Below are positions 2,925-48,381 of a stretch of DNA of 64,000 bases, one piece after another; the stretch's first letter is position 1, and every line of letters begins with the position of its first letter. The notes beneath the pieces were generated by a model. The model saw only the letters and a list, made by a program, of their open reading frames with translations, made no database searches and was not told where the DNA came from. The translations under genes were made by a program, and so were the position numbers. The stretch comes from an archaeon (GTDB taxonomy: Archaea; Thermoproteota; Nitrososphaeria; Nitrososphaerales; Gagatemarchaeaceae), in the NCBI GenBank assembly GCA_016432545.1, contig CP066694.1, positions 248,001 through 312,000 of the forward strand, read 5' to 3'.

Positions 2925-4415
2925 CTATGGTTGGGGAGTACACGCCCCTGTTGGTGAGGATCCTGCCACTAGGTTCCCATGACACTCGTCAATCGAGTAG
3001 AAGTTGGCTGTGCCCAAGGAGCCCGCCCCAGAGGTGGTGTCTAAGTAGCCATAGGTTGAGTCCCCGTCCGCCGAATTCGCACTGAATGTGTTTCCAATCG
3101 ATAACCCCTCGACCCAGAATCCATTGTCGAGGTTGCTCTTTGCTGTATTTCCGAAAACCTGACTCTGAGACGAAAAGTGGAAAAAGAAACCCTGCCTAAC
3201 ATTCTTCATGGCCGAATTACCACCCAGCGATGACGCATTGGAGAACCACATGTTGAAGCCGTCAATGCCATTGGCTTTCGCCACGTTTGTTAATGCTATG
3301 TTTGAGGCCGAGTACAGGAAATAGAAACCATGGTTTGAATTACCCAGCGCTGAGTTCTTGACGAGCGTATTGTTCGTGGACGAGTAAGCGAGCGTGATCC
3401 CTGATCTGAGGTTCTTGCTGGCAGTATTTCCCTTTAGATAGTTCGAATGCGAAGTATAGAGAGTTATACCTGAAAAGACATTCTTGGTGGCGCTGTTCCC
3501 CACTATGGCGTTGGACGACGAATTCAAGACTGCAATCCCGTTTACGCCGTTTGACTTTGCTGTATTCTTAGTTAGAAAGTTTCCCATTGAGTTAGTTAGG
3601 TTTAGACCCGAATGGCCATTCGAAGTTGCTGAGTTCTTGATTAGGCTGTTATCGTCGGCGTTTGCCAAGAGAAAGCCGTTTCCAGCGTTGTTGCTCGCAA
3701 GGTTATTCTTCAAGGAGTTCGTCGAGGCATGCCAGAGTTCGTAACCATTGAGCACATTCAGTCTGGCAAGATTGCCATTGAATGTGTTGTGTGATCCTAT
3801 AATGAAGAAGCCCTCCTCACCCCCATTCGAAGCCGTGTTCCTTGTGACAGTAAAGTAGTCGCCAGCCAAAAAGAACCCGATGCCATTGGAATCGGCAGTG
3901 TTTTTGCTTAGGACAAAGCCATTTCCATTGAGGAATTCGAACCCGGCCCCGAGGGCAAAGGTCGCTTTGTTGGACGTGAAGTAGTTTCCCGAAAGTGATG
4001 AGCTCGAAGCTGATCCGTTGGAGAAGTAACGTTGTCCAGAAAAGTATCCAAAGAAGTTGTTGGTCGCCGTGTTCCCAATCAAGGAGTTGTATGATGAGTC
4101 GAGATAGACCCCGAACCAAAATGAGTAAATCTTACAGTTCCTAAGTGTAGTTCCATCATACCTGGAAAGGTTTACTCCGCTTGACAAGTACCCTTGGGTT
4201 CCCGTAATTGAGTGACCCTTACAGTCAACATTGGTGCTATCTTCCCCGATCTTGAGCCCGTCACCTGAACATGGCCCGATGTCGTCCGACAACACTATTG
4301 ATCCTGAGACTGTCATTCCGCAAGTCAGGGCCGTTGCAACAACAGGAATTGTGCCACCTGCGACAGTTCCTGAGAGAAGCAGTATTGCCAGCGGAATCCT
4401 ATAAGATAAGTTCGT
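2925..4415 (-). CDS. NosD-like parallel beta-helix (PbH1 repeat) secreted protein, start codon uncertain
   Basis: The protein is made of about 23-residue beta-helix rungs with the recurring pattern NxAxxNxxxGxxLxxSxxNxLxxN. It opens with the family's usual N-terminal cap (CGMTVSGSIVLSDDIGPCSG), and C-G-D-G-L plus VDCKGHSITG are also typical. Such proteins are exported and bind surface ligands or glycans. The first ATG is at 4316, but the frame stays open upstream and encodes a clear signal peptide (NLSYRIPLAILLLSG, then VVATALTCG). That segment has no ATG, GTG or TTG. An ACG at 4415 stands where the start should be, so either ACG initiates or an ATG was mutated. The gene is visibly AT-richer than its neighbours. 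Confidence 0.75.
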   Translation of the reverse strand, partial: TNLSYRIPLAILLLSGTVAGGTIPVVATALTCGMTVSGSIVLSDDIGPCSGDGLKIGEDSTNVDCKGHSITGTQGYLSSGVNLSRYDGTTLRNCKIYSFWFGVYLDSSYNSLIGNTATNNFFGYFSGQRYFSNGSASSSSLSGNYFTSNKATFALGAGFEFLNGNGFVLSKNTADSNGIGFFLAGDYFTVTRNTASNGGEEGFFIIGSHNTFNGNLARLNVLNGYELWHASTNSLKNNLASNNAGNGFLLANADDNSLIKNSATSNGHSGLNLTNSMGNFLTKNTAKSNGVNGIAVLNSSSNAIVGNSATKNVFSGITLYTSHSNYLKGNTASKNLRSGITLAYSSTNNTLVKNSALGNSNHGFYFLYSASNIALTNVAKANGIDGFNMWFSNASSLGGNSAMKNVRQGFFFHFSSQSQVFGNTAKSNLDNGFWVEGLSIGNTFSANSADGDSTYGYLDTTSGAGSLGTANFYSIDECHGNLVAGSSPTGACTPQP

Positions 4416-4516
4416 AATTAGCCCAAAGAGCGTCGGCTCACATACCTAATAACTGTTCAACTCGTCGAAATCACCGAGAGTTGCTGGTACCCCTTTGACT
4501 CTCGACAATAATGAAC

Positions 4517-7747: not shown

Positions 7748-8065
7748 CTGAAACGAACGAAGTATCGGAGCAGGTCTGACATAATCGCGGCGCTGTTGAG
7801 GGCCGCTTCGGGTCCCGGGGCGCGGAAGTCAAGGCTTGTCTTTTCGGCCTACTTGTCGGGCGCGCAGGTAAGGGAGTACATCCCTTTCCTCGAAGGACGC
7901 CAATTCCTGAGGAGAGATCCAAGCACCAACCTCTTTCGGCTGACGGACAAGGGCAAGCAAGCGCTTGACCTCTATGAGAAAATGGCAGAGGTGTTCCGGG
8001 ACAATGCAGGAATCGGGTTCACCTCGGGGGTCGAGGGAATCGGAACGTCGCGAAGGACGGACTAG
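7748..8065 (+). CDS. Small winged-helix regulator of the archaeal 'KYRSR' type, probable CTG start
   Basis: The protein opens with KRTKYRSRSDIIAALLRAA, continues RKSRLVFSAYLSGAQVREYI and ends with a dimerisation helix (DLYEKMAEVFRD). This is the layout of small single-domain wHTH proteins abundant in Nitrososphaeria-like archaea. The family normally begins two to four residues before KYRSR. The frame is open upstream to 7544, but there is no ATG, GTG or TTG near the conserved start: the nearest is GTG 7691, which would add 19 odd residues. CTG 7748 sits exactly where the family begins, about 35 nt after a TATA-like CATTATCT. The start is inferred; the domain call is firm. Confidence 0.68.
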   Translation: MKRTKYRSRSDIIAALLRAASGPGARKSRLVFSAYLSGAQVREYIPFLEGRQFLRRDPSTNLFRLTDKGKQALDLYEKMAEVFRDNAGIGFTSGVEGIGTSRRTD

Positions 8066-8604: not shown

Positions 8605-9600
8605 ATGACCAACAGTATTTTAAGCCTTCCCGACAGCGACCAGCCGGACCTCCTTACCTCCCTAGCGCAGGAGTTCAAGGAGGCCTTTGAGGAACTCTCG
8701 GGGCACGCCCAGAGCGAGCTCTCCGGCAAGCACTTCGTCTTCAGCCGATACGGGAAGGAACTGTATCCGTACTTCGAGTCGACGGACTCAGACCTTGCCC
8801 CTGGGTGCATAGTTCCCCTCAAAGAAGGGCGGCCGGTCGCGTCCGTCGACTCGACGTGCGTCCTCGTCGGTGAGACCCCGAAAGGCGCCCTCTATGCCGC
8901 GAGGACCGCGGTTGGTCTGTCCTTCGACGGCAAGCTCCGGAGGTTCTTCAGGCTGGGCCCGCTGCTGGTCTACGCTTCTCCCGACGGCTTGGAGGGGATA
9001 CCAAGCGGGTCCTCATCGCCAGAGATGCAACTCCTCTTGTCCGACCACACGGTGGCAGAACGCGTGATCAGGAACCTGGTCGAGGAACGCGTGATCCGCG
9101 CAATAATGGAGGAGGGCGAAGAGGTGACCGTCCTCTCCGACGGTTCGCTGAAGCATCCCATGGGCGCGATCCATGCTTCTTCGGCCAGGAACTGGAGAGC
9201 AGGGAATACGCTTGTGGGCTTCTCAAAGTCAAGCGGCCTGATCTTCTCGGAACGCCTGGTCGGGGCCTTGTCAAAGTGCGAGACCCCATCTTACTATCTA
9301 GTCGACGGGGGTCCAATCGACAGCGTCCTGGCGAAGTTTTCCCCCCAGGGCCTGGTCTTCAGGCTGGACGTCCCGCGAAGAGGCGTAGCCCTCGAGAGGG
9401 TCCTTGGGAGCCTATTGTGGAACGACGCCTTCTCTTCGGGCTACCCGGAGTCGCTCAAGGTGGCCCATCACCTCTCCATCTTCTCGAAGGCGGACGACCA
9501 GGCCCTGAAGGCCTTCGTCATGCGGCGCTTCGGCCTCCGACAGGTTCCAGCGTTCCCGGTGAGGAGGATCGCGCTGGGAGGTTTCAGGGGAGGGGCCTAG
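8605..9600 (+). CDS. nurA: NurA-domain nuclease
   Basis: NurA is a dimeric nuclease that works with the HerA translocase in DNA end resection with Mre11-Rad50. The usual acidic metal-binding sites are visible: ASVDSTCVLV around residue 80, VLSDGSLKHP around residue 175, and YYLVDGGPIDSVLAKF around residue 230. A basic C-terminus (QVPAFPVRRIALGGFRGGA) closes the fold. It has 331 residues from ATG 8605, a normal length; the upstream in-frame GTG 8593 is less likely given the TATA spacing. herA follows after 34 bases. Confidence 0.88.
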   Translation: MTNSILSLPDSDQPDLLTSLAQEFKEAFEELSGHAQSELSGKHFVFSRYGKELYPYFESTDSDLAPGCIVPLKEGRPVASVDSTCVLVGETPKGALYAARTAVGLSFDGKLRRFFRLGPLLVYASPDGLEGIPSGSSSPEMQLLLSDHTVAERVIRNLVEERVIRAIMEEGEEVTVLSDGSLKHPMGAIHASSARNWRAGNTLVGFSKSSGLIFSERLVGALSKCETPSYYLVDGGPIDSVLAKFSPQGLVFRLDVPRRGVALERVLGSLLWNDAFSSGYPESLKVAHHLSIFSKADDQALKAFVMRRFGLRQVPAFPVRRIALGGFRGGA

Positions 9601-9622
9601 CTCGAGGATACTCAAGAAAGAA

Positions 9623-9637
9623 GGAGGGGACATCCTG
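9623..9637 (+). promoter_or_regulatory. Shine-Dalgarno and CTG start of herA
   Basis: GGAGG at 9623-9627 precedes CTG 9635-9637 by 7 nt. No ATG, GTG or TTG occurs in this frame between the stop at 9560 and GTG 9683, yet the residues between 9635 and 9683 belong to the HerA N-terminal barrel. Confidence 0.6.
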
Positions 9638-11062
9638 GTCGTCGCCTCGGCGAGAGAACAGGCGCGGGTCGGTGACTACCTGGTGGCTGCGGAAGCTCAG
9701 AGGAGCCTCGTCCTCCAGGTGTACGACGAGAGATATCTCGACGTGGAGGGGGTCGAGGAGGAGATTGCCCGAGAGGAGATCCTATCCGCGTCAGCCCCGG
9801 GCGTCACATCGGACCCGGCAGACCTGGCGACCATCTCGACCCTGATCAGGGACATGAGAATACTTCTTTGCAAGGCCCGCGGCACGATATCGAGAGGAAG
9901 GCTGACGCCAAGGGTCGACTGGATGCCGTCGAGGACGACGACGAGCGTCACAAGGCTCCTTGTGGAGGAGTTGACCTCCGCGCTCCCTCCGCTGGGGAGC
10001 AGGGAGATCAAGCTGGGAACGGTCGACGCGGAGTCCAGGTTCGCCATCTCGGCCGAAGCCCTTGACGGGAGGATAACCGTGATCACCGGGAGGAAGGAGT
10101 CTGGCAAGTCTCACCTGGCCAAGATGCTCCTGAGGGGGCTCCTCTCCCACGGAGCCTACTCGATAGTCTTCGACCTCAACGACGAATACGGCGCGATAGG
10201 ACAGAGGCGCGACGGCTCGAGGACCTCGGAGAGCGGAAAGGTGAAAGTCGTCCGCCCTGGCCGCGAGCTCAGGTTCTCCCTCTCTACAGTGGGCCTCAGG
10301 TCCATCACCAACCTGCTTTCGCACTCCCTGGACATGCCAGGGACGTCACTCAGAGAGTTCGTGAAGATCTGGGAACAGCTGGACTCGCGGGACGAGCTCT
10401 CGCTTGTTACCCTCGAGGCCGCCATCCACCAGTGGAGGTGCAACGAGTTCGTGAGGGACGCTCTCTTCGCTAGGTTCCATACGCTCGCCTCCTGCGGGCT
10501 CTTCACCGACTCGGAATCGGCGAAGTTCGACCTCCAGGACTTCTTCAGCCTCAATCCCGAGGGAGGGTCCCTTGTCATCTCGCTGAGCGGTATCTCGCCG
10601 ATGAACAGGAGGATGGTCGTGGAACTGATGCTCTCCAAGGTCGTCGAGCTGCTCGAGCACAGGAAGGTGCCCCCTGTCTTTCTCTTCGCCGAGGAGGCCC
10701 ACCTCTACCTCAGGGAGACCTACTGGGAGGACCTCATAACGAGGATGCGCCACTTCGGGGTCTTCACCGTCTTCGTTACCAACCAACCAGACGCCATCGA
10801 CCAGAAGATCTACAGGCAGGTGGACAACATCTTCCTGTACAGCTTCAGCAACGACGCCGACCTGGCGCTCGTCTCTCAGGCTTCGATGGCCGACGCGGAC
10901 ACTGTCAAGGCAATCGTCCGGACGCTCCCGCCCAGGATGTGCCTCCTGCTCGGCCATGCCGTCAGGCACCTTCCGGTAGTCGTGACCGTCGACCCGTTCG
11001 ACTCCCCGGAGAGCGGGACGACCCGGAGGTTCTTCAAGGAACAGGTCGAGCTCCGTGCGTAG
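9635..11062 (+). CDS. herA: HerA-type hexameric DNA translocase, probable CTG start
   Basis: HerA is a ring ATPase of the FtsK/VirB4-like class that pumps DNA into NurA during end resection. An N-terminal HAS-barrel (ASAREQARVGDYLVA) is followed by the P-loop GRKESGKSHLAK near residue 155. VFDLNDEYG and the Walker B segment PPVFLFAEEAHLYL follow, then the Arg-rich sensor stretch TRMRHFGVFTVFVTNQPDAI. Calling the start at GTG 9683 would cut into the barrel. CTG 9635 has a strong Shine-Dalgarno and gives about 475 residues. It lies 34 bases behind nurA and converges on the pilin operon. Confidence 0.88.
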   Translation: MVVASAREQARVGDYLVAAEAQRSLVLQVYDERYLDVEGVEEEIAREEILSASAPGVTSDPADLATISTLIRDMRILLCKARGTISRGRLTPRVDWMPSRTTTSVTRLLVEELTSALPPLGSREIKLGTVDAESRFAISAEALDGRITVITGRKESGKSHLAKMLLRGLLSHGAYSIVFDLNDEYGAIGQRRDGSRTSESGKVKVVRPGRELRFSLSTVGLRSITNLLSHSLDMPGTSLREFVKIWEQLDSRDELSLVTLEAAIHQWRCNEFVRDALFARFHTLASCGLFTDSESAKFDLQDFFSLNPEGGSLVISLSGISPMNRRMVVELMLSKVVELLEHRKVPPVFLFAEEAHLYLRETYWEDLITRMRHFGVFTVFVTNQPDAIDQKIYRQVDNIFLYSFSNDADLALVSQASMADADTVKAIVRTLPPRMCLLLGHAVRHLPVVVTVDPFDSPESGTTRRFFKEQVELRA

Positions 11063-29691: not shown

Positions 29692-30408
29692 ATGGAGTCT
29701 GCTTCACAGGTCCGCAGGCCTCTCGCGCTGGTATCCGGCCAAAAAGAATACTCGGTGATCGCGAGCCTCCCAAAGAACAGCACGTCCCTGGCTGCCCAGG
29801 CGGAGGACGCCGGCGCAGACGCGATAATGCTCAACATAGACGGCGATGAGGGCTCCTCTCCGAGTCACTTTGGCAGCTACGACCTGCACGACGCCTACAT
29901 CAACGACGTAATCTCGAGCGTTTCCCTCCCATGCGGAATCTTCATCGGGGGAGCAAGGTCCCTCACCCCCGAGTACTGGGAGCGGATAATGTCCAGCTCC
30001 TTCAGCTTCGTCGAGATGTACGCTCATCAGATGCCGACCTTCGTACTCTCAGACTCACGCGTGAAGAAGATCAGCGCCATCGCGACCGGCTACATCCTCG
30101 AGCAGGTCAGGCAGCTCTCCCTCATGGACAGCCTGGAGGCGATAGACGTCGCCACCGTGCCCGCCCAGGCGAAAGGGACGCCCTTCAGCGTCCTGGACCA
30201 GGCCACCCTCGGGGTGATCATAGGAATCTCCACCAAACCCGTGCTTCTCAAGACCCAGAAGAGGCTCTCACGTGACGACATCGAGCGGGCAACCTCGATG
30301 GGGGTCAGCGGCCTGATCGTCGACCCTTGCATTCTCTCAGGAACCGACGAAGCGTATAAGGAAGAGCTGGCGGGCCTGCTCCCCAGGCGAAGCCAATCTG
30401 AAGCATAG
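29692..30408 (+). CDS. Predicted TIM-barrel protein of unknown function
   Basis: The chain alternates strands and helices as in a (beta/alpha)8 barrel: YSVIASLPK, AGADAIMLNIDGD, LPCGIFIGGAR, FSFVEMYAHQ, VKKISAIATG, LEAIDVATVP, LGVIIGISTKPVLLK and MGVSGLIVDPC. The layout recalls sugar-phosphate epimerases or phosphate-binding barrels, but no diagnostic catalytic motif is clear. ATG 29692 follows an AGGTGG Shine-Dalgarno at 29681-29686 by 5 nt. It overlaps the CTG start of a sugar-phosphate nucleotidyltransferase, so a role in nucleotide-sugar metabolism is plausible. Confidence 0.6.
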   Translation: MESASQVRRPLALVSGQKEYSVIASLPKNSTSLAAQAEDAGADAIMLNIDGDEGSSPSHFGSYDLHDAYINDVISSVSLPCGIFIGGARSLTPEYWERIMSSSFSFVEMYAHQMPTFVLSDSRVKKISAIATGYILEQVRQLSLMDSLEAIDVATVPAQAKGTPFSVLDQATLGVIIGISTKPVLLKTQKRLSRDDIERATSMGVSGLIVDPCILSGTDEAYKEELAGLLPRRSQSEA

Positions 30409-31117
30409 CGGAATCCAAGGGGTCGTCCTAGCAGGCGGCCTCGGGACGAGGCTCAGGCCGTACACACTCCTCACCCCCAAGCCGATGCTCTCCGTGGGGA
30501 CCAAGCCGATTCTCGAGCACATTCTCGTTTGGCTCAAGAGCCAAGGGGTCGAGGACGTGGTCGTTTCCACCGGGTACCTCGGCAAGTTGATTCAGGAGTA
30601 CTTCGGCGACGGCTCTGAGTGGGAGGTCGAGGTCTCCTACGCAGCCTCACCGAACCCCCTCGGGACTGCCGGCCAGCTTAAGGCCGCCGAGCCTAAGATC
30701 AAGGGCACCTTCGTGTGCGTCTATGGAGACGCCATCCTTGACTTTGACCTGAGGAAGGTGATCGAGTTCCACAGGAGGAACCGGGCCGACGCGACCATGG
30801 TCCTGATGCAATACAGCGCTGAAATGAAGTACGGCTTCATCGAGACAGACGCCAAGGGTCGGCTCACTGAGTGGAAGGAGAAGCCAAAGATTTCGGGCCT
30901 CATCAACGTGGGGTGCTACGTCATGGAGAGGAGCTTCCTGAAACACATCCCTGGTGGGAGGATGTTCGGCATGCGCGAGACGTTCGACAGGGCGATGTCG
31001 GCCGGCGCCCGGGTCTATGCGATGAAGGCGAAAGGAGAGTTCCTCGACATCGGCGACAAACGCTCCTACCGGGAAGCCAACCAGCGGTTCATGAAGAAGA
31101 TCGGCAAGGTGCTGTAG
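30398..31117 (+). CDS. Sugar-phosphate nucleotidyltransferase (NTP_transferase), probable CTG start
   Basis: Forms an NDP-sugar from a sugar 1-phosphate. The signature GVVLAGGLGTRLRPYTLLTPKPM lies within the first 30 residues; later parts are ILEHILVWLKSQGVEDVVVS, FVCVYGDAILDFDL and FGMRETFDRA. The first ATG in frame is 30485, after the catalytic loop, so the real start must be upstream. No ATG, GTG or TTG exists there. CTG 30398 gives MKHSGIQGVVLAGG, a normal family N-terminus, overlapping the TIM-barrel gene by 11 bases. Length is then 239 residues. The stop is followed by a GlmU-like gene in the same frame. Confidence 0.88.
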   Translation: MKHSGIQGVVLAGGLGTRLRPYTLLTPKPMLSVGTKPILEHILVWLKSQGVEDVVVSTGYLGKLIQEYFGDGSEWEVEVSYAASPNPLGTAGQLKAAEPKIKGTFVCVYGDAILDFDLRKVIEFHRRNRADATMVLMQYSAEMKYGFIETDAKGRLTEWKEKPKISGLINVGCYVMERSFLKHIPGGRMFGMRETFDRAMSAGARVYAMKAKGEFLDIGDKRSYREANQRFMKKIGKVL

Positions 31118-31126
31118 ACGACGCAG

Positions 31127-32365
31127 CTGGTCGTCTTCGAGGATGAAGGATTCGACCACCTCCGCCCGCTGACCCTGACGAAGCACGTCAGCCTGCTCTC
31201 TTGGGGGACAAAGCGGTTGCTGGAGGTCGTGCGACAGAGCTCCGGCCTGCCCGAAGAGCCCACCTTGTGGGGAAGGAAAGAACTGGAAGGGGTGACCGAG
31301 GAGGCCACAGGCCTGGACTACAACGAACACTTGGAAGGGTCCTTACTCATGGTAAACGCGGGAGCTAGGCCCTCCAAGCTCATAGGGGAACTCTGCTCTC
31401 GGAAGGGCCCCTTCGTGGCTCTTGCGGGCGGCCGACTCCTGGCCGCGAGGGTAGGCCGAGGCGCAGCCGACCCGGGGGTGCTGGGCAGGAAGCAGGTTAA
31501 GGCGCTCGCAAGGGGATCCGAGAGGCTCGAAGCGCCCGCTGACAGTTTCTTCCGCGGATACTGGGACCTCGTCGAGAGCAACGGCGTGGCTATCGCGGCC
31601 CAGGCAGGACACTTCGAAGACCCCCTACAGCCCCCGAGTTCCGTCGAGGTGCGAGGCCCAGCCGGCAGTCTCCGGATCGATGGCGGCGCAGAGGTGGAGA
31701 AGTTCGTCACATTTGACACCAGGCGGGGCCCGATCGTGGTGTCCAAGGGCGCTCTAATCGAAAGCTTCTCTCGGGTGATGGGACCATGCTACATCGGCCC
31801 AAAGGTCAAGGTCCTTTCAGCCCTCATCGGCGGAGGCACGTCGATCTTCGAAGGATGCAAGGTGGGAGGACAGATCGAAAACTCCGTCGTCCAGGCCCAC
31901 ACCAACAAGGCTCACCACGGCTACGTAGGGGACTCCTACGTCGGGGAGTGGGTGAACCTCGGAGCGGGGAGCACGTTCAGTAACCTGAAGAACACCTACG
32001 GCAATGTCAGGGTCCAAGGCCAAGGCTCACGGACCGATTCCGGGATGCTTAAGCTGGGCCCGGCGGTCGGGGACATGTGCAAGGTCTCGATCGGGGCCCT
32101 CGTCCATGCGGGCAGGACAATCGGGGCGGGGAGCCAGGTCTCGGGGCTTGCGCGCGCGAGCATCCCACCATTCATCTTCTACGACGGCGAGACGGGACGC
32201 TCCGTGGAGCTCCTGCTCGAGTCGGTCGTAGAGACGCAGAGGAGGATGATGGAGCGAAGGGACATCACCCTCACGAGGGCAGCGGAGGGGCTCATCAGGC
32301 TCGCTTTCAAGGCGACATCTGCCGAGAGGAGGAAGTTCGGGGCACGGAAGGGGGCCCTGTCATGA
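31127..32365 (+). CDS. GlmU-like two-domain protein (nucleotidyltransferase-like N-terminus plus left-handed beta-helix), probable CTG start
   Basis: The C-terminal half has hexapeptide repeats (GPCYIGPKVKVLSALIGGGT, then GAGSTFSNLKNTYGNVRV and ACRTIGAG-type turns), as in sugar acyltransferases. The N-terminal half starts VVFEDEGFDHLRPLTLTKHV, which matches the opening of the alternative bacterial GlmU family (FEDxGFxxLxPLTxTRPV). The first canonical start, TTG 31217, would remove this opening. CTG 31127 restores it and lies 9 bases after the TAG of the previous gene, in the same frame. Predicted role: sugar 1-phosphate activation and/or acetylation for nucleotide sugars. Confidence 0.8.
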   Translation: MVVFEDEGFDHLRPLTLTKHVSLLSWGTKRLLEVVRQSSGLPEEPTLWGRKELEGVTEEATGLDYNEHLEGSLLMVNAGARPSKLIGELCSRKGPFVALAGGRLLAARVGRGAADPGVLGRKQVKALARGSERLEAPADSFFRGYWDLVESNGVAIAAQAGHFEDPLQPPSSVEVRGPAGSLRIDGGAEVEKFVTFDTRRGPIVVSKGALIESFSRVMGPCYIGPKVKVLSALIGGGTSIFEGCKVGGQIENSVVQAHTNKAHHGYVGDSYVGEWVNLGAGSTFSNLKNTYGNVRVQGQGSRTDSGMLKLGPAVGDMCKVSIGALVHAGRTIGAGSQVSGLARASIPPFIFYDGETGRSVELLLESVVETQRRMMERRDITLTRAAEGLIRLAFKATSAERRKFGARKGALS

Positions 32366-47694: not shown

Positions 47695-47760
47695 TGAGCC
47701 ACCACCTGATGGCTCTCGCCACAAGCGATTGACCAACGCAATCAAGATTCCCTCGCATGA

Positions 47761-47775
47761 GGAGGGGGCCGCCTG
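47761..47775 (+). promoter_or_regulatory. Shine-Dalgarno and CTG start of the GDT1-like gene
   Basis: GGAGG at 47761-47765 precedes CTG 47773-47775 by 7 nt. The in-frame stop at 47758 and the absence of other start codons before GTG 47827 leave CTG as the only plausible start that keeps the first membrane helix. Confidence 0.65.
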
Positions 47776-48381
47776 ACGACGGACGCAGCGCTCGCCGCGT
47801 TCCTGACCATCGCATCGGCCCTCTTCGTGGCGGAGCTGACCGACAAGGACGCCCTCCTGATCTTGACCCTGGCCACGAAGACCAGGGCTGTGATCGTGTT
47901 TCTGGCCGGCGCTTCGGCTTTTGTGTTCACCACCTTCGTGAGCGTGGTGCTCGGTTCTGTCGTCAGCTCCCTGATCCCGATACTCTGGGTCAAGCTCGCA
48001 GGCGGGGTGGTGATGCTCGCGTTCGGCGTCCGCGAAGCCAAAGGGATCATAGGACAGAAGGCGATCGAAGAGGAGGAGAAGAGGCTCGAGAAGGTCAAAG
48101 ACGGAGCGAGGGCCTTCTTGCAGATGTTCGCTGCCCTGGCCATCCTCGACCTGGCTGGAGACGCCACCATGATACTCACGGTGGTCTTGGCGGCCCAGTA
48201 CGCCGACAAGCTATTCATCTTTTCATCCATCTGCCTAGGGCTCATCGCGGCGACCGCATTCGAGACCGCCCTTGGCAATCGGCTCGGGAGGATGCTCACC
48301 CCCCGGAGGCTCAAGTACGCGGCCAGCGCCGTCTTCATCACCATAGGGGTCGTCATCATCGCGACGAGCATCTGGTACTGA
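47773..48381 (+). CDS. GDT1/TMEM165-like (UPF0016) membrane protein, divergent, CTG start
   Basis: From CTG 47773 the 202-residue protein begins MTTDAALAAFLTIASALFVA and has two copies of a three-helix unit. The first carries VAELTDKDALLILTLAT and the second LAILDLAGDATMILTVV, similar to the paired ExGDK(S/T) motifs of UPF0016 cation exchangers. The first motif has Thr for Gly and the second starts with Asp, so this is a divergent member or a related family. A charged cytoplasmic loop (EEEEKRLEKVKDG) separates the halves. Calling the start at GTG 47827 would delete helix 1. Confidence 0.62.
   Translation: MTTDAALAAFLTIASALFVAELTDKDALLILTLATKTRAVIVFLAGASAFVFTTFVSVVLGSVVSSLIPILWVKLAGGVVMLAFGVREAKGIIGQKAIEEEEKRLEKVKDGARAFLQMFAALAILDLAGDATMILTVVLAAQYADKLFIFSSICLGLIAATAFETALGNRLGRMLTPRRLKYAASAVFITIGVVIIATSIWY

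Follow-up and report, generated by a model that had tools for sequence, protein, structure and literature searches.

The window analysed here is a stretch of 64,000 nucleotides (G000:C1:248001-312000) from a thaumarchaeal genome, G000, which consists of a single contig of 1,504,237 bp with 60 percent GC. It contains five genes for which translation had been proposed to start at a CTG codon, at 7748, 9635, 30398, 31127 and 47773. The genes, with their predicted starts, and the Shine-Dalgarno (SD) motifs ahead of two of them are:

7757..8065, + strand: winged-helix regulator (HTH_45), likeliest start ACG 7757
9588..9593, + strand: SD-like GGAGGG, about 8 nt before TCG 9602, in the sequence tcaggggaggggcctagcTCG
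9602..11062, + strand: HerA-like ATPase, start TCG 9602, 1 nt after the TAG of the upstream gene (9598-9600)
30398..31117, + strand: sugar-phosphate nucleotidyltransferase (NTase), start CTG 30398, overlapping the TAG of the upstream gene (30406-30408)
31121..32365, + strand: GlmU-like nucleotidyltransferase/acyltransferase, start ACG 31121, 3 nt after the upstream TAG (31115-31117)
47761..47765, + strand: SD motif GGAGG, 7 nt before CTG 47773 and 10 nt before ACG 47776
47776..48381, + strand: GDT1-family membrane protein, likeliest start ACG 47776, alternative start CTG 47773

The leader of the GDT1 gene is as originally described: a TGA at 47758 is followed by no in-frame ATG, GTG or TTG before GTG 47827, the GGAGG at 47761-47765 is spaced 7 nt from CTG 47773, and translation of the codons between the stop and GTG 47827 yields the first helix of a GDT1 protein (PF01169). 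Read from ACG 47776, the product (gene 47776-48381) is a member of the GDT1 family, since it matches PF01169 above the gathering score, in two stretches (E 3.8e-23, 82.1 bits versus a cut-off of 27); GTG 47827, the first standard codon, falls inside helix 1. The column of ACG 47776 is occupied by a standard start codon in all ten aligned homologues from the same genus (ATG in seven, TTG in two, GTG in one), while at the column of CTG 47773 the codon is CTG, GTG or TTG in homologues that are more distant. A start at CTG 47773 is possible in view of these distant homologues, but it is not favoured: ACG 47776 fits the ten close homologues better and, on this comparison, is the likely start. Homologues do not start at GTG 47827, so that the objection raised beforehand, that they might, does not apply.

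The five window proteins were searched in up to 60 relatives, mostly MAGs, and the DNA around the N-termini was aligned. Among the five proposed sites, CTG 30398 of the NTase is the only CTG that is fully supported: no ATG, GTG or TTG occurs after the upstream in-frame stop until the conserved N-terminus is reached, the start is CTG in 22 out of 22 genomes of the family, and in four of them (G009, G004, G008 and G023) a TGA stands immediately ahead of it. PF00483 matches the protein from residue 8. This CTG is never replaced by a standard codon, whereas the HerA start varies freely; its invariance could be regulatory.

For the GlmU-like gene, a standard start is indeed absent between the upstream stop and the conserved N-terminus, but the homologues begin two codons before CTG 31127, at ACG 31121. 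Position 1 of the TIGR03991 profile falls on ACG 31121 and position 2 on residue 2 of the protein that begins there, hence CTG 31127 is codon 3 of the gene. At the start column of 21 family sequences ACG is found in 15, including G000, and CTG, TTG and ATG in two each. In G027, which belongs to another family of the order, the GlmU-like gene has an upstream stop followed by GAG AAG ACG AAG ACC, and the surroundings of its conserved N-terminus contain no standard start; the use of ACG as a start may extend beyond this family.

Similarly, the HerA-like gene was correctly described as having no ATG, GTG or TTG ahead of its conserved N-terminus, back to the in-frame stop, but CTG 9635 is internal, as conservation extends 11 codons further upstream, to TCG 9602 in G000. 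The start column is NYG in 24 of 25 sequences (GTG 7, CTG 5, GCG 4, TTG 2, ATG 2, ACG 2, TCG 2), and a G-rich block resembling GGAGGG is also found in relatives, ahead of ATG, GTG or GCG. Two HerA-like homologues contain an in-frame TAA, one at G037:C1:285358-286782 and one in G031. In the winged-helix gene, the proposed lack of standard codons was not borne out, since in-frame GTG and TTG codons exist 18 to 67 codons upstream; moreover, the homologues begin three codons after CTG 7748, with ATG, TTG or GTG at the column of ACG 7757, reading MKYRSR, and PF14947 matches the protein from residue 3. By this alignment ACG 7757 is the likely start, and an extension from GTG 7691 is a conceivable alternative. 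CTG was therefore the wrong codon at most of the five sites, where the alignments point to ACG (31121 and 7757), to TCG (9602) and, preferably, to ACG 47776.

The start columns were tallied in 95 sequences, excluding partial ones, from five families (HerA, GlmU-like, NTase, YchF and GDT1) and about 25 species. All 95 have N-[T/C]-G: ATG, GTG or TTG in 37, CTG in 29, ACG in 21, GCG in five and TCG in three. NYG comprises eight of the 64 codons and the tally exceeds chance, although the 95 codons do not represent 95 independent events, the species being related and some sequences using a neighbouring codon. Genetic code table 11 lists ATG, GTG, TTG, CTG, ATT, ATC and ATA as starts, all of them NTG or ATN; the ACG, GCG and TCG found in 29 of the 95 sequences fall outside it. 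GCG and TCG derive mainly from the HerA and YchF columns (eight sequences). None of the five families showed CCG as a start, and AUA, AUU and AUC were not seen at the start columns.

The YchF start is GCG in G000 and TCG in G042, and other sequences have ATG, TTG, GTG or ACG, at the same column or at the next. The start is displaced by one codon from the G000 column in six of the 17 YchF sequences and in some NTases (by two codons in a single NTase, that of G020). In G012 and G015, an in-frame TAG or TAA is directly followed by ACG CCC ATC AGG; in the alignment with the G000 gene, the P-loop has already been passed when the next standard codon is reached. Many start-codon switches are visible in HerA and YchF alone. 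It is very unlikely, then, that CUG is just one additional regular start codon of these organisms. Such a reading would account for the conserved NTase CTG, for the CTG found in 5/24 HerA and 2/21 GlmU-like sequences and for the CTG of TFS and UroD in G000; however, ACG, GCG and TCG fill the same start columns in sequences that offer no CTG there, and the stop-ACG YchF genes of G012 and G015 contradict it. What stands of the original prediction is that genes begin upstream of any standard start, a pattern that the aligned relatives reveal as systematic and lineage-wide, and that CUG is used; CUG is not the shared feature, which is the NYG set.

The ratio pN/pS, pooled over sequence pairs and uncorrected for phylogeny, was calculated for the codons that separate the NYG start from the first standard one, giving 0.23 for HerA, 0.44 for GlmU-like, 0.21 for NTase, 0.08 for YchF and 0.55 for GDT1; in all five genes these values are close to those found further along the same gene. 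Immediately before the start, the ratio was 1.32 for HerA, 1.00 for NTase and 0.99 for the third of the measurable genes. The ratios indicate that protein-level selection switches on at the NYG codon. It is hardly credible, in this light, that the true starts are the later ATG, GTG or TTG codons, with the upstream conservation reflecting regulatory DNA, or that an ATG is concealed by sequencing errors: selection on the protein is seen upstream of those codons, and later starts would leave YchF without its P-loop, GDT1 without its first helix and the NTase without its nucleotide-binding motif. Sequencing errors hiding an upstream ATG, the other objection anticipated, are excluded by the agreement among many independently assembled species, with more than 20 independent assemblies; no support for either version was found.

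Gene-finder and tRNA searches covered most of the G000 sequence. A dicodon gene finder detected a strong coding signal upstream of the first ATG, GTG or TTG in 33 of 1304 complete genes; a looser cut-off gave 125 of 1475 genes, in a list that includes false positives. Named cases are YchF (GCG), HisRS (ACG), TFS (CTG) and LysX (ACG or TCG), to which UroD (CTG, with GGAGG), a zinc ribbon protein (ACG), A-type ATPase subunit E and another NTase, with start ACG 518285, can be added. In YchF (GCG), the NTase at ACG 518285, the GlmU-like protein (ACG 31121), TFS (CTG), HemE (CTG), HisS (ACG) and LysX, the first position of the curated family model coincides with the predicted start or is only a few residues away from it. 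SD motifs are weak and rare in G000, and their enrichment before CTG and ACG is weak, at only 1.4-1.5 fold, although of the same size as before ATG. Within the window, a membrane-protein-like ORF on the - strand (2925-4442) is mechanically annotated from ATG 4316, and its coding signal runs for about 42 codons beyond this ATG, up to a stop near 4445; for this longer ORF, an ACG at about 4433 could serve as the start.

A homology census was run on filtered genes against the outgroup G025 (GC 42 percent), which was preferred to G015 because many G015 matches upstream of the first start were alignments of untranslated or overlapping sequence. No convincing case was found in G025 among 173 genes with homologues, while the same rule gave about 4-5 of 215 genes in G000. 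With unique anchors, a start-column census in pairwise comparison with G025 and G015 gave too few data and too much noise. Overall, we estimate that a few percent of the genes are affected in this genus.

The NYG habit is specific to initiation, as conserved internal methionine codons do not drift to ACG. A codon reassignment, with ACG read as methionine everywhere, was rejected, since ACG accounts for only 4 of the 684 internal codons that fall in conserved ATG columns. A single initiator tRNA was found in the 98 percent of the genome covered by this search, with anticodon CAU and three short introns, in the D loop, the anticodon arm and the T loop (G000:C1:899138-899270, + strand); spliced in silico, it is recognized by ARAGORN as tRNA-Met(cat). 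The introns interrupt the gene, which explains why Rfam and simple patterns miss it. An intron-free initiator pattern has no match in the whole genus, so the gene is probably interrupted in all its members. The elongator tRNA-Met (CAT) of G000 (G000:C1:1349433-1349523, - strand) also has an intron and is miscalled tRNA-SeC(tca) by ARAGORN, and many other tRNA genes of this genome have introns at unusual places.

As the sole initiator-type tRNA found in 98 percent of the genome has the anticodon CAU, an altered initiator anticodon was ruled out, and so was an altered 16S rRNA 3' end, which in G000 is the normal GGATCACCTCC with the anti-SD present. Loss of aIF1 or aIF1A was discarded as a cause because both are encoded in G000 (PF01253 and PF01176, respectively). 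The aIF1 of G000 (G000:C1:1349665-1349877) and that of G052, from the same family, are devoid of the N-terminal Zn knuckle. This loss was also dropped as a cause, as 36 percent of archaeal aIF1, about a third, are without the knuckle (PMC6237735). Most outgroup aIF1 copies of the order show the knuckle, and some outgroups, such as G032, have two SUI1 copies, one of which is knuckle-less. Thus, among initiator tRNA, 16S rRNA 3' end, aIF1 and aIF1A of G000, no clearly altered component was found.

On the basis of these comparisons, all of which concern sequences, we consider it probable that this lineage regularly starts translation at N-[U/C]-G through a relaxed recognition, and that CUG, ACG, GCG and UCG are genuine, inherited starts in a few percent of the genes; these appear to include HisRS, YchF, TFS, UroD, LysX and A-type ATPase subunit E. 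The 30S subunit would be placed by an SD motif, as in GDT1, HerA and UroD, or by termination of the upstream gene, as may occur for HerA (1 nt after a TAG), GlmU-like (3 nt after a TAG) and NTase (overlapping a TAG). The aIF2/Met-tRNAiMet complex would then accept any first base, U or C at the second position and G at the third, inserting methionine: C34 of the initiator would pair with the invariant G, an A35.C wobble would be tolerated and the first base would be ignored. Start codons could drift by transitions between NTG and NCG, aided by the 60 percent GC of the genome. Relaxed decoding alone also predicts AUA, AUU and AUC starts, none of which was seen, and leaves the absence of CCG unexplained.

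The same absence of CCG is accommodated by site-specific C-to-U editing of the mRNA, which would convert ACG, GCG, TCG and CTG to AUG, GUG, UUG and UUG, leaving initiation itself canonical: each nonstandard start observed is exactly one C-to-U step from a standard one, and CCG would need two changes. We regard editing as unlikely, and less likely than relaxed start recognition, because otherwise invariant internal columns show no excess of T-to-C (15, versus 18 C>T, 54 G>A and 30 A>G), conserved internal methionine codons do not turn into ACG, and no common flanking motif could be recognized by eye at the sites. In addition, all tRNA genes that were read have T8, with nothing resembling the C8 editing of Methanopyrus tRNAs. 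Editing of mRNA of this kind is not known in archaea, and none was found in the literature searched.

Reinitiation after termination has been described in archaea at overlapping or abutting genes (PMC10666635), and in the window three of the five genes begin next to an upstream stop or overlap it. The GDT1 and winged-helix genes do not, being about 80 nt and about 115 nt, respectively, from the upstream gene, and coupling to termination therefore cannot be the whole cause. The same distances weigh against a restart in which the ribosome would use an elongator tRNA (Thr, Ala, Ser or Leu), so that the first residue would not be methionine; this would suit the genes at 9602, 30398 and 31121 and UroD, which abut or overlap the upstream stop, but the start column alternates freely with ATG, GTG and TTG among close species, which suggests a single initiator, and we judge it quite improbable.

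Initiation by Met-tRNAi at NYG codons, the preferred reading, recalls near-cognate initiation in eukaryotes, where CUG and ACG are likewise among the codons used, together with GUG and others, and aIF1 and aIF2 are homologous to the fidelity factors eIF1 and eIF2; eIF1 helps to reject non-AUG codons (PMC6237735). Unlike the eukaryotic near-cognates, the codons described here are the sole starts of conserved housekeeping genes and are inherited between species; moreover, two of them, GCG and UCG, have two mismatches to AUG, while AUA, AUU and AUC were not seen. With the prokaryotic GUG, UUG and rare CUG or AUU starts they share a free first base, the use of SD motifs and a Met-tRNAi with CAU, but NCG starts are common in this lineage: among 61,358 ancestral AUG starts in 36 bacterial and archaeal groups, only two changed to CUG, and ACG goes unmentioned (PMC5622118), and a review of archaeal initiation reports AUG, GUG and UUG only (PMC7531240). 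As in plant organelles, ACG replaces ATG at a conserved start column; here, however, no sign of internal editing is seen and GCG, TCG and CTG occur too. The organellar ACG starts are usually edited to AUG. No report of regular, inherited ACG, GCG or TCG starts in archaea and their housekeeping genes was found in the literature searched, the coverage of which was partial. The phenomenon would fall within non-AUG initiation, a known class.

If this interpretation is true, the start rule of a large archaeal lineage would be NYG, and not AUG, GUG and UUG, with GCG and UCG as natural start codons. Gene callers that accept only NTG would truncate or miss a few percent of the genes of these organisms, including HisRS, YchF, TFS and UroD. 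The finding would also bear on how the codon is checked by aIF1, aIF2 and the initiator tRNA in a system ancestral to that of eukaryotes, for which a natural comparison is offered by relatives that start the same gene with ATG, GTG, CTG, ACG, GCG or TCG.
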